From Candidatus Melainabacteria bacterium (GTDB lineage Bacteria; Cyanobacteriota; Vampirovibrionia; Obscuribacterales; Obscuribacteraceae): DNA of 64,000 nt. The position numbers and the translations under genes are program-made. The notes beneath the pieces were generated by a model. The model searched no databases and was not told where the DNA came from. It saw nothing but the letters and a program-made list of their open reading frames with translations. The stretch is from NCBI GenBank assembly GCA_003963305.1, contig RXJR01000009.1:124001-188000 (forward strand), given 5' to 3'. Positions 12,782-49,964 of the stretch are shown in pieces; positions within the stretch are counted from its first letter, which is position 1; each line of letters opens with the position of its first letter.

Positions 12782-12848
12782 TAAAACAACCTGACGTCGG
12801 CGCGATTGTAGCAACGCGAAGCAATTTGCGAGCGGCAGCTCCGGATGG

Positions 12849-12877
12849 ATGACGTAATGAGCCTGTGGCACTATACT
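12849..12877 (+). promoter_or_regulatory. promoter module, copy 1
   Basis: A -35-like ATGACG (12849-12854), a 17-nt spacer ending TGTGGCAC, and -10 TATACT (12872-12877). The same module, same spacer length and same flanks recur at 13718 and 14792. It stands 44 nt before the gene at 12921. Confidence 0.65.
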
Positions 12878-12920
12878 AAGGAATTATCGGCTGGGAATAT
12901 CTAGCGCCAAAAGGTGCCGC

Positions 12921-13241
12921 TTGATACAAGAAGTGACAGACAGTGAAAAGTCCAAAATTTCAATAAACTATTGGCTCGTGCCGATCATTGGCATTTTAGT
13001 TTTTCTTGTTTCGGGAGTTGGTTTCGGCTGGTTCATTCTTCTTCAGATGCAGGCACACGGATTGCATCAGGGTGACTATTTTCGCTTTGGTCACTTTCAG
13101 CTTTATCTTTTGGGTGCAGGCGGAGGAATATTTGCCATTGCCATAATCGCAATATCTGCAATATTGGCTGCTGTTACAACTATGCTTACTATTAGTTGGG
13201 GACCTAAAATTTTCTCGATTCTAAAAAGCAAGCGGAAGTGA
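12921..13241 (+). CDS. small two-helix membrane protein
   Basis: 106 residues. The TTG at 12921 follows an AAGGTG at a short distance; a GTG four codons later is an alternative. Two membrane helices (about 19-42 and 65-92) with short charged ends and a glycine-rich second helix. No recognised domain. It follows promoter copy 1, and its leader shares CAAAAGGTG-CGCT with the leader of the gene at 14982, so the two are probably co-regulated. Confidence 0.5.
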   Translation: MIQEVTDSEKSKISINYWLVPIIGILVFLVSGVGFGWFILLQMQAHGLHQGDYFRFGHFQLYLLGAGGGIFAIAIIAISAILAAVTTMLTISWGPKIFSILKSKRK

Positions 13242-13330
13242 GACACCCCATCGCCAATCGTACTCATGGAACCACGTCAAACACTCTAGAGCGTCTGACA
13301 AAGTGGCGCTGAACCGTTACCAGTCGGTAA

Positions 13331-13540
13331 AAAACACAGCAAGAGACAGTCCTAAACTCTGCTCTTCTGACTGCTTCACAGCCCGGCGACCTTACTGCGT
13401 TACTCAACCATAGGATCGACGCCCCCGCTCTAGTCCAACTTTTAACAGGACTGAAACCCGCTGAACGCTATCCAAGGGCGTTCTTACTGTTGAGATAAAG
13501 CAACTAGAACGAGAAGGCGTTTATTCACGAGGGATGATGA
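13331..13540 (+). pseudogene. decayed winged-helix-like fragment
   Basis: One frame (13331-13498) reads ETVLNSALLTASQPGDLTALL and on to TGLKPAERYPRAFLL. After a shift near 13490 the next frame continues TVEIKQLEREGVYSRG. The order short helix, TGL turn, helix, L-x-LE-x-x-G and a basic end resembles the C-terminal winged helix of DprA-like or similar DNA-binding proteins. No start codon or ribosome binding site. I take it as a frameshifted remnant; the family assignment is weak. Confidence 0.3.
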
Positions 13541-13717
13541 GCTTTTCGAGCATGCAATGGATGAACTCAACATACATAATCCGCTTTTCGAGAAGTCCGT
13601 CCATGAGCACTGCTGCGAAGAAACGAGAAACGACAAAGCTGATGAGAGATCTGCGCAAATTGCATCCTACTAATCGACGAGAATAGAACGTCCAGCACAA
13701 TTGGAAGCCCGGTAAAG

Positions 13718-13746
13718 ATGACGCAAGGGTACTCTGGCACTATAAT
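13718..13746 (+). promoter_or_regulatory. promoter module, copy 2
   Basis: ATGACG (13718-13723), 17-nt spacer ending TCTGGCAC, perfect -10 TATAAT (13741-13746). Nearly identical in layout to copies at 12849 and 14792. It drives the mini-PspA gene. Confidence 0.7.
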
Positions 13747-13809
13747 GAAGGAACAGTCAGCTGTGAATGTCAGCCGAGCGCCGTGACGCAGATAATCTTT
13801 GTCGATAGA

Positions 13810-13986
13810 ATGCCTATTCCAGAAGACTCAAAAATACAGATAATAAAACGGCAAATTGAAGCTTGGAAAAATAGAGCTGCGATGGCTCGACAGCAAGGAT
13901 GCGACGATTTGGAAAAACAAGCCCTGGACCATAAAAGAGAGTACGAAAACGAACTGGCAAAACTTCAAGAGTTTGAACTTGAGTGA
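13810..13986 (+). CDS. mini-PspA: isolated PspA/Vipp1 helical segment
   Basis: 58 residues from the ATG at 13810. A GTG at 13783 is possible, but the MPI start lies in a block shared with the gene at 14982, including AGAATGCCTATT and ACTCAAAAAT. Residues about 16-50 match residues 68-97 of the full PspA at 49209-49964: W, NRAAMA, QQG, DDL, KQAL and Y are identical, about 19 of 30 positions. In PspA/Vipp1 this is the conserved part of the long coiled-coil hairpin. The amphipathic helix that binds membranes and the rest of the hairpin are absent. It could join or poison PspA rods; that is inference. Confidence 0.7.
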   Translation: MPIPEDSKIQIIKRQIEAWKNRAAMARQQGCDDLEKQALDHKREYENELAKLQEFELE

Positions 13987-14055
13987 CATGCACTCAGACT
14001 AAGAGAATGATGACAAAGAACATACAAGGTTATGAAACTGTCGGGAATGTGAACC

Positions 14056-14247
14056 ATGGAAGAAGACAACGACGAAGAAGCACTTAAAATACAAACTGGT
14101 GAACTGTTGAAATGGCTTGTGATACGTCGTTCATCACCTGGCGAAGGACCTGAACTACGCGCTTCTCCTGTGCCAAAACGTCCGTCACCTGACAGTGGTA
14201 CAAATGCTGCAAATCTAAACAGTCCTGGGGCGGAAGACGAAATATAA
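14056..14247 (+). CDS. possible small acidic protein
   Basis: 63 residues, acidic at the N-terminus (EEDNDEEALK), then a short helix (GELLKWLVIRR) and a serine/proline-rich disordered tail. A GGGA lies about 10 nt before the ATG. It lies between the mini-PspA gene and the FtsH-like membrane protein on the same strand. Could be genuine; no family recognised. Confidence 0.35.
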   Translation: MEEDNDEEALKIQTGELLKWLVIRRSSPGEGPELRASPVPKRPSPDSGTNAANLNSPGAEDEI

Positions 14248-14262
14248 GCAAGCAGGCTTATA
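14243..14262 (+). promoter_or_regulatory. 7-bp palindrome upstream of the 14310 gene
   Basis: TATAAGC and GCTTATA around a 6-nt spacer, overlapping the stop of the preceding small gene. It is AT-rich, without a T-tract, so an operator or an mRNA hairpin is more likely than a terminator. Confidence 0.4.
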
Positions 14263-14309
14263 AGCACGGCAGGCACGTTAGAGAAACAAATTAAGGAGCA
14301 CAGAATAGC

Positions 14310-14768
14310 GTGGTGCGTGAAAAAAGACTAGCACCAGTCCTGTGTCTCATTGCGGCAGTAGTGCTTTGCTGTGAGTGGCTTGCTGACGAGACGCATCGTT
14401 GTCCAGAATTTGCCTACAGTCAGTTTCAGAACATGCTGAGGGCAGACACTATTGATCAGAACCTCGTCACTGTGGTGCTCCCTCCCTATACGAATAGTTT
14501 CGGTCGCGATTATGTGCGCTTGTGGATAAAGGGAGATCCTCTATGCCACTTCATGTTTATTCCGACAGACTTTTTAAATCATGACGGACCAGCTCTGAAA
14601 AAAACGCGCGCATATAGAATTCAGAGTTGTGGCAATTGTGAGATCATCGGAATCGGGTTGAAGATATTTTTTGAGATAGTAATCGCTGGGTGTATCCTTC
14701 TGGCATTTCGCTCAAAGCTGTCGAATGAAACAGAACATCGGCAATCGACTCAGGAAGAGACCGCTTAG
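14310..14768 (+). CDS. membrane protein resembling the FtsH periplasmic region
   Basis: 152 residues from a GTG with AAGGAG 11 nt upstream. Two membrane helices (about 8-24 and 117-137) flank an extracytoplasmic domain. That domain begins CPEFAYSQFQNMLRADTIDQN, close to the pattern at the start of the FtsH extracellular domain (YSEFL...V..G.V..V), and the two-helix layout equals the N-terminus of FtsH. No AAA or protease part follows; a short Gln/Glu tail ends the protein. FtsH homology is inference from pattern and topology only. Confidence 0.5.
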   Translation: MVREKRLAPVLCLIAAVVLCCEWLADETHRCPEFAYSQFQNMLRADTIDQNLVTVVLPPYTNSFGRDYVRLWIKGDPLCHFMFIPTDFLNHDGPALKKTRAYRIQSCGNCEIIGIGLKIFFEIVIAGCILLAFRSKLSNETEHRQSTQEETA

Positions 14769-14791
14769 CAGAATCGCGAAGTTCGGGAAAA

Positions 14792-14820
14792 ATGAAGCAT
14801 TGACGCTGTGGCGCTATACT
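14792..14820 (+). promoter_or_regulatory. promoter module, copy 3
   Basis: ATGAAG (14792-14797), 17-nt spacer ending TGTGGCGC, -10 TATACT (14815-14820). Third copy of the module at 12849 and 13718. A further TCTAGC-CAAAAGGTG-CGCT block is shared with the leader of copy 1. Confidence 0.65.
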
Positions 14821-14981
14821 AAAGAAAAGGTCGTTACGCATGTCTAGCATCAAAAGGTGTCGCTCAATAGAGCAGTTTTAGCTTGAAGAGTCTGAGGCTA
14901 GACAGAAAAGCAATTTGGCAATGGTCATCGTCATATTGTTTGGTCAATTCAATCAAAGGCTTCAGACACTCGGACACAAGA

Positions 14982-15287
14982 ATGCCTATTTCCAACGATA
15001 CTCAAAAATCGGTAGTTCAAAACTCTTGGTTCGCAGGACACCACCATCCGTGGCTGAGCTCTGCAATTGGACTGTACTTGGCTGGCGTATTTTCGTTTGG
15101 CACAGACCTGTATTTGTTCTGGCTAAACAGACCGGATGACCTCGACAGAGGTCCGCATTTTATAGATGACTTCACTTTCACGATAATGGTCGAAGCGCTG
15201 GGCGGCTGCATCGTGTACGTGCTAATCGCAGTTCTGCAATGTCTATTTGATTTTTTGCGCTGCGTCTTCTACAAGTCTGAAACATAA
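14982..15287 (+). CDS. small two-helix membrane protein
   Basis: 101 residues from the ATG at 14982; the start block (AGAATGCCTATT) is shared with the mini-PspA gene. Two membrane helices (about 26-46 and 68-92), with an acidic loop (NRPDDLDRGPHFIDD) between them. An upstream in-frame start at 14883 would add 33 residues with no homology support. The leader from promoter copy 3 is long, about 160 nt. Family not recognised. Confidence 0.5.
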   Translation: MPISNDTQKSVVQNSWFAGHHHPWLSSAIGLYLAGVFSFGTDLYLFWLNRPDDLDRGPHFIDDFTFTIMVEALGGCIVYVLIAVLQCLFDFLRCVFYKSET

Positions 15288-17568: not shown

Positions 17569-17810
17569 AGTCCTTTGACGGGTGGGTCTCACGGTTTGCC
17601 AAAAAACAAGGACAGCTGGCGGACCTAGATAAGGAAGGTGGTTTTACCTTCTCGTCAGAGTTTAAACCCTTTGAACGCCATTTGAATTTGGACAACTGAC
17701 TGCATTGATGAGTTAAAAAACTTTCCGAAGCTTTCTTATATTGAACGGAAATTTCTCTCTTAGGGGGCCCAGAAGGGGCCCAGACGAAATTGCGAAATCC
17801 GGAAAAGCTT

Positions 17811-17883
<73 letters not shown>

Positions 17884-49208: not shown

Positions 49209-49964
49209 CTAAACTTCGTCTTCTTCTTTCACATATTTCGCGTCAACTGTGATGTCTCCATCACCTTTGGTTTCGATTAGAACCGGCTCTTTAACGCTGA
49301 TTTTGTTGTCTGCCTTGCCCATAGATTGCTTCAAGGCGAGCAGTTCCATCTCGACGTCTGACTTTCCTTCAAAGTTCTTGAATTGTTTATCCAGACTGTC
49401 AGTGCTCAGCTCAGCCAGGGCAGCAGCTTTGGCTTCGCGCTCCTGGACTTTTGTTTCCATCTTTTCAATAACTGACATGGCGCCTGAGGAGGTCGTTTTG
49501 GACAAGATCTCATTGGCTTTCGAAGTGGCTTGAGCTGCCTTGTCACGAGCAATAAGAACTTGTTTCTTGGTGTAAGCCTTCTGCACTTCAGCTTCGAGGT
49601 CGGTCAGTCTCTGACGCAGCGTCACTGTCGACTCTCTCTGCGACTTGAGCTGTGTTTCCAGGTCAGTGGCAGCCTGCACATACTGTTGACGGCGTTGTAG
49701 CGCTTGTTTGGCCAGGTCGTCGTTGCCCTGCTGAACCGCCATTGCGGCGCGATTTTGCCAGGTTTCAGCCTGGTCTTTATTCTTCTGAAGTTGCTGCTCG
49801 AGCTGCTTTTCGGTGGCAATTGCCTGAGCCACTGCCTGCCTCACCTGAATCAAATTGGATTGCAAATCCTGATAGGTTTGCTCCAGCATGATCTGGGGGT
49901 CTTCCATCTTTCCCAAAATCGCGTTGAACATAGCCCTGAACAAGTTACCGAGGCGTTCGAACAT
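49209..49964 (-). CDS. pspA: phage-shock protein A / Vipp1 family
   Basis: 251 residues, AAGGAG 9 nt before the ATG. An ESCRT-III-related protein that coats and repairs membranes. Amphipathic helix alpha-0/1 begins MFERLGNLFRAMFNAIL, followed by DPQIMLEQ (the PspA start signature) and a long coiled-coil hairpin with WQNRAAMAVQQGNDDLAKQAL at 69-89. A charged tail (EPVLIETKGDGDITVDAKYVKEEDE) ends the protein, as in PspA rather than the longer plant/cyanobacterial Vipp1 tail. A fragment of this protein is encoded separately at 13810. Confidence 0.92.
   Translation of the reverse strand: MFERLGNLFRAMFNAILGKMEDPQIMLEQTYQDLQSNLIQVRQAVAQAIATEKQLEQQLQKNKDQAETWQNRAAMAVQQGNDDLAKQALQRRQQYVQAATDLETQLKSQRESTVTLRQRLTDLEAEVQKAYTKKQVLIARDKAAQATSKANEILSKTTSSGAMSVIEKMETKVQEREAKAAALAELSTDSLDKQFKNFEGKSDVEMELLALKQSMGKADNKISVKEPVLIETKGDGDITVDAKYVKEEDEV

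Follow-up and report, generated by a model that had tools for sequence, protein, structure and literature searches.

What do three similar promoters within 2 kb of each other control in the genome of a Candidatus Melainabacteria bacterium, a non-photosynthetic relative of cyanobacteria, and would the genes behind them act together? The promoters and five small open reading frames (ORF1 to ORF5, see Table 1) form a cluster within a 64-kb window of contig RXJR01000009.1 (the window is the whole stretch of DNA analyzed; the source genome comprises 7,480,726 bases, 7.5 Mb). Two of the frames resemble parts of host proteins, i.e. PspA, the membrane-repair protein of the cell, and FtsH, a membrane protease. 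The original prediction had regarded the arrangement as a promoter repeatedly duplicated with exchange of the gene behind it, and as a possible membrane-stress cassette; judged from the sequences, such a cassette is plausible. In the following, G000 denotes the genome of the window itself and other G labels its relatives, C a contig and L a locus.

The three predicted promoters

The hexamers ATGACG, ATGACG and ATGAAG at positions 12849, 13718 and 14792, each separated by a 17-nt spacer from TATACT, TATAAT and TATACT, respectively, were recovered exactly as originally described; the repeated unit is longer than had been assumed and comprises 47 nt. In ungapped comparison with copy 1, copy 3 is identical at 35/47 and copy 2 at 32/47 positions; the next best matches to copy 1 in the window reached 24/47 (plus strand) and 27/47 (minus strand). 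Genome-wide statements on promoter and leader are based on pattern searches of the contigs of the genome: The pattern ATGANG-N11-TGGCRCTATAMT matched three times in 7,480,726 bases, each time in the cluster (backward control: 0), and the short core TGGCRCTATAMT alone had one further occurrence, on another contig. The chance of finding three random sites within 2 kb amounts to approximately 2e-7. A matrix derived from the three copies gave scores of 53-55 for the copies, which are high by construction since the matrix was built from them, and of no more than 17 for all other sites in ~0.4 Mb of sequence from this genome and its relatives. Neither the pattern nor the matrix searches yielded further promoter or leader copies in the genome or genus. 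On the basis of these comparisons, the three promoters are regarded as homologous copies of one locally duplicated segment. The 17-nt distance between the -35 and -10 hexamers agrees with the spacing of sigma-70-type promoters; as this is a consensus match only, the sites are predicted promoters. A sigma-54 promoter reading of the TGGCAC motif (TGGCAC-N5-TTGC) was rejected: TGGCRC is followed by TATAMT, and no TTGC element is present.

Table 1. Position and properties of the features of the cluster and of its surroundings (window coordinates).
Feature	Position	Strand	Properties
Promoter copy 1	12837..12883	+	ATGACG 12849, TATACT ending 12877; sigma-70-type match 9/12; one of 3 genome matches
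Leader block copy 1	12897..12926	+	TCTAGC..CAAAAGGTG.CGCT; predicted 5-pair stem, AAAA loop
ORF1	12921..13241	+	106-aa two-helix membrane protein; start TTG 12921 or GTG 12933
Promoter copy 2	13706..13752	+	ATGACG 13718, TATAAT ending 13746; best sigma-70-type match of the region, 10/12
ORF2	13810..13986	+	58 aa, ATG start; free-standing PspA hairpin tip
Start-codon block MPIPEDSKIQ	13810..13839	+	common to ORF2 and G000:C11
ORF3	14056..14247	+	63 aa, between ORF2 and ORF4, absent from the original prediction; C-terminal tag VPKxPxPxSG
ORF4	14310..14768	+	152 aa, GTG start; FtsH transmembrane-periplasmic-transmembrane module without AAA+/protease
Promoter copy 3	14780..14826	+	ATGAAG 14792, TATACT ending 14820; below cut-off of the consensus promoter scan
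Leader block copy 3	14840..14869	+	repeat match; predicted fold
5'-untranslated region and start block	14950..14993	+	CAATCAAAGG..CAGACACTCGGACACAAGAATGCC; also in G000:C11, G002:C78, G001:C22
ORF5	14982..15287	+	101-aa two-helix membrane protein, ATG 14982
tRNA-Thr(CGT)	17811..17883	-	synteny with relatives breaks at 3' end
Full-length PspA of the genome, outside the cluster	49209..49964	-	251 aa; PF04012 E=1.3e-47

Free-standing pieces of PspA and FtsH

ORF2 had been assigned as a PspA fragment, which is borne out by several comparisons. Its residues 8-53 match residues 60-105 of the TIGR02977 model (expectation value E=4.7e-5; the score of 23 bits lies far under the curated family cut-off of 243 bits), residues ~7-53 match PspA-like frames of mostly full-length size in 49 of the 50 family genomes, and a match to Vipp1 residues 65-104 was obtained in the Protein Data Bank (E=0.03). 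According to these alignments, the region corresponds to the tip of the alpha1-alpha2 hairpin. ORF2 shares with PspA/IM30/Vipp1 (PF04012, TIGR02977) this tip including W, RAxMA and DLxxQAL; in contrast to them, alpha0, alpha4, alpha5 and the larger part of the hairpin are missing from it, and the full alpha0-alpha5 ESCRT-III-type core is thus absent from the 58-aa frame, which stops after the tip. Short free-standing tips were also read in G002, G043, G056, G054, G003, G059 and G062, and a tree of 41 columns placed the free-standing tips apart from full-length PspA (support 94/92). That ORF2 arose by recent truncation of the full-length PspA of this genome is accordingly disfavored, on a separation that comprises only these 41 columns. 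The nearest tip (G002) shows 69% identity to ORF2 and a ratio of nonsynonymous to synonymous substitution rates (dN/dS) of ~0.25, which argues for a gene under purifying selection. No virus, phage or plasmid homologues of ORF2 were found in the searches.

Two of the tips in relatives carry the C-terminal tag described below for ORF3 and overlap a neighboring gene: in G059 (C482; L076:725-1532) a free-standing Clp_N gene (E=4e-12), an arrangement suggestive of one operon, and in G062 the end of an Rhs-like gene, the RHS match of which is weak (E=0.017).

The FtsH-like nature of ORF4, likewise claimed originally, holds for the N-terminal module, the only part present. ORF4 by itself had no sequence-family match, and a profile search against the sequences of solved structures gave no FtsH match; FtsH_ext was matched in one of its three distant homologues (E=0.018). 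A structure model was therefore compared that had been calculated from four sequences (predicted local distance difference test score, pLDDT, 71.5): The best Foldseek match was the Escherichia coli FtsH (E=4.5e-3), and in a finer fold comparison all top nine entries were FtsH or FtsHi, with Z scores of 7.6-8.5 for 2muy, 9a2p, 7wi3 and 4m8a (8.5 over 69 residues for 2muy, and 8.4 for 9a2p, where the 126 residues include both membrane helices). According to the model, ORF4 has the membrane helix, the periplasmic alpha/beta domain and the second membrane helix in the order of FtsH (FtsH_ext, PF06480); in contrast to FtsH, neither the AAA+ ATPase nor the zinc-dependent M41 protease domain was detected in its 152 residues. 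As their defining parts are absent, ORF2 and ORF4 cannot be counted as full members of the PspA and FtsH families. No viral homologues of ORF4 or ORF5 were found in the searches.

Leader and start-codon blocks

As predicted, a leader block is common to copies 1 and 3 only (24/30 nt). The three differences within its central 22 nt are all located inside the predicted five-pair stem with AAAA loop and preserve it, which is suggestive in a comparison of two sequences; the leaders as a whole gave no significant thermodynamic signal (z -0.3, 0.25 and -1.4) and matched no known RNA family, the tRNA being the sole RNA match. The start-codon block AGAATGCCTATT is, also as described, exactly identical in copies 2 and 3, and it recurs elsewhere: The codons MPIPEDSKIQ of ORF2 are identical to those of G000:C11 in 27/30 bases, all three differences being synonymous, and the G000:C11 gene, the product of which has 65 aa and one putative membrane helix, combines the 5'-untranslated region of ORF5 with the first ten codons of ORF2. 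The body behind the start block is a PspA tip in G002 and a different one, close to a relaxase gene, in G001:C22. The block is a separate module that is shuffled before unrelated bodies in genome and genus. Of the proposed promoter duplication with gene exchange, the homology of the promoters and the recurrence of the start block before other bodies were upheld; the promoter and the leader, in contrast, were not encountered again in the genome or genus, an outcome that had been named as half of what would refute the proposal. Body exchange therefore fits the start block better than the promoter.

An element with TGTCGACA palindromes was seen by eye to be common to L009:1100-1240 and L010:1880-2030; it adjoins the ORF5 homologue in G001 and a PspA tip in G002, there in opposite orientation to the gene.

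ORF1, ORF5 and the arrangement of the cluster

The genes flanking the PspA/FtsH pair encode small membrane proteins, in agreement with the original description, which needs correction with regard to the starts: ORF1 has no ATG start codon, and ORF5 begins ~160 nt downstream of promoter 3. For ORF1 no convincing homologue was found in the searches (orphan). ORF5 has one clear homologue (G001:C2, 68% identity), and the dN/dS of ~0.2 indicates that it is conserved under purifying selection. A weak collinear alignment of ORF1 and ORF5 (E=0.04 in one comparison) is not significant; the two might be distant paralogues. On the plus strand, a terminator scan gave a candidate downstream of ORF1 (13463-13483) and no candidate from 13718 to 14768, which suggests the three units P1-ORF1, P2-ORF2-ORF3-ORF4 and P3-ORF5; the scan carries little weight, since ORF1 and ORF5 likewise contain terminator-like sites.

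In G001:C2 (L071:9460-10097), the gene after the ORF5 homologue comprises 109 aa and consists solely of two ClpX zinc fingers; the pair is situated between two integrase genes. Between ORF1 and promoter 2, 39 nt (13639-13677) match a gene on G000:C5 that is GDSL-type hydrolase-like by eye and are probably a gene remnant.

Location in accessory DNA

The alignment with two related metagenome-assembled genomes (JAFEAT010000024.1 and PLZS01000099.1; loci L156 and L157) ends at the 3' end of the tRNA-Thr gene (17802-17806); PLZS01000099.1 has an integrase gene at this break point, and JAFEAT010000024.1 provides no further sequence beyond it, its contig ending there. Genes of an integrase, a relaxase and an Rhs-repeat protein are located on the contig of the window to the left of tRNA-Thr. 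The cluster is situated in accessory DNA that ends at the tRNA-Thr 3' end, and a genomic island at this tRNA gene is likely. The locus shares with tRNA-associated genomic islands the break exactly at the tRNA 3' end, the integrase at this site in a relative and the flanking integrase and relaxase genes; it differs from them in that no repeat of the tRNA-Thr end (attachment site) was detected across the 141 kb of contig sequence leftward of the gene and that no left boundary was recognized over 124 kb. Decay of the repeat, or an element that extends beyond the contig end, may account for this.

Proposed function and alternative explanations

The cluster is not a Psp operon, because its promoters are not of sigma-54 type and no Psp partner was recognized: It resembles the PspF-sigma54-PspABC system of Proteobacteria in the presence of a PspA-derived protein beside small membrane proteins, and differs from it in the lack of a sigma-54 promoter and of recognizable PspF, PspB and PspC and in the restriction to a PspA fragment. 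It is best described as a set of truncated homologues of known proteins in a new arrangement. We tentatively propose that the non-catalytic pieces of PspA and FtsH are co-regulated competitors or modulators of the host machines, a mechanism that as a whole we would not yet call probable. The shared promoter would co-express the three units, and an operator could be formed by its conserved bases adjoining the -10 box. Having lost the acting parts and kept the surfaces for assembly and partner binding, ORF2 and ORF4 would work as competitors or adaptors. As helix alpha5 of one Vipp1 subunit docks across the hairpin tip of its neighbor (PMC8281802) and the isolated alpha1-3 hairpin binds membranes (PMC12636044), a free tip could cap or dilute polymers or coat membranes; by occupying either the site where alpha5 docks between PspA subunits or the surface of the membrane, it would limit PspA polymers. 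The FtsH piece would join FtsH assemblies or compete with them or with their membrane partners, and an accessory role would fall to the two-helix membrane proteins; the net effect would be a tuning of the host envelope response, possibly to the benefit of a mobile element.

Counted in favor of this mechanism were the homology and uniqueness of the promoters, the PspA tip family with its purifying selection, the fold of the FtsH N-module together with the FtsH_ext match, the lack of a plus-strand terminator candidate from 13718 to 14768, the published docking and membrane binding of the Vipp1 hairpin, the synteny break at tRNA-Thr with integrase and relaxase genes to the left, and the company of PspA tip and Clp_N in G059 and of ORF5 homologue and ClpX zinc fingers in G001. 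Several points weigh against it: None of the relatives searched has conserved the promoter copies; expression and binding are predictions from sequence and model; the FtsH match depends on a medium-confidence model from four sequences; ORF2 spans ~40 hairpin residues, far below the alpha1-3 construct of PMC12636044; a protease N-domain gene is close by in only 2/10 free-standing tips examined; and the boundary of the mobile element is not established, as no attachment-site repeat was found. About the same confidence is placed in a neutral local duplication, by which the promoter and 5' region were copied twice during the turnover of accessory DNA and the small genes that happened to follow were retained, without special co-regulation of functionally unrelated genes. 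The confinement of the copies to 2 kb and to one genome, the remnant at 13639-13677 and the high turnover of the accessory region are consistent with this; yet the hexamers and the adjacent GTGGCRC were kept while the flanks diverged, the homologues of ORF2 and ORF5 are under purifying selection, and two of the genes echo one process, membrane quality control.

A tandem duplication of a whole small-membrane-protein gene, with ORF1 and ORF5 as diverged paralogues that retained promoter and leader and a PspA-tip unit inserted later behind a third promoter copy, would account for the leader being common to copies 1 and 3 only and for the weak collinear alignment of the two frames; since the latter was not significant against composition-preserving local shuffles (5%) and was absent when ORF1 was aligned with the G001 homologue of ORF5, we consider this course unlikely. 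Still less probable is a toxin-immunity or conflict module, in which the small proteins would be immunity or decoy proteins tied to polymorphic Rhs toxins and mobile elements and not stress regulators: The overlap of a tagged tip with the Rhs-like gene in G062 and the free-standing Clp_N gene directly after an Rhs-repeat gene left of the window point in this direction, whereas no Rhs gene adjoins ORF1-ORF5, most free-standing tips have no neighboring toxin gene and the RHS match in G062 is weak.

Returning to the co-regulated competitors, a broader version would state that the accessory elements of the family carry stand-alone non-catalytic domains of host quality-control machines (PspA tip, FtsH N-module, ClpX zinc fingers, Clp_N), here under a duplicated promoter, as dominant-negative or adaptor modulators of the envelope and proteolysis response; this generalization is rather doubtful, and no report of dominant-negative FtsH or ClpX fragments was found in the literature searched. 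The free-standing PspA tips and FtsH N-modules would offer natural probes of PspA polymer limitation and of FtsH docking to membrane partners, and the three promoter copies a ready test of co-regulation; if the pieces are competitors, they would represent a simple evolved means of tuning membrane quality control, possibly by mobile elements.

ORF3 and further observations

The tag region of ORF3 (14164-14244) belongs to a motif with the consensus [S/A][R/P]VP[K/R]xPLPxxGxGxxALPLP and a mostly acidic end (loci L098-L127), which occurs in the C-terminal region, at the end or close to it, of numerous proteins of the family that show no other relationship. A profile built without ORF3 recovered it at E=9e-4. 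Matches were obtained in 19/50 family genomes at E up to 0.1, the weakest of them probably being due to chance. A search of 386 genomes drawn from the phylum gave no match; it was not exhaustive, as the profile at that cut-off missed ORF3 too. Carriers include several PspA tips, an IF3 N-domain, winged-helix and zinc-ribbon-like proteins and a copy of ribosomal protein S2 with the tag at its C-terminus (G063:C55; L139:8468-9286). A targeting or partner-recognition tail would be a guess.

To the left of the window, on G000:C9 (L149:1938-8846), a gene for a 2076-aa Rhs-repeat protein is followed after 60 nt by a free-standing Clp_N gene. Tandem direct repeats of similar sequence, recognized by eye near the tRNA-Thr 3' end in the window (17763-17785) and at L157:7096-7116 (GGGGCCCAGAAGGGGCCCAG, GGTGCACAGAAAGGTGCACAG), are possibly integrase arm sites.

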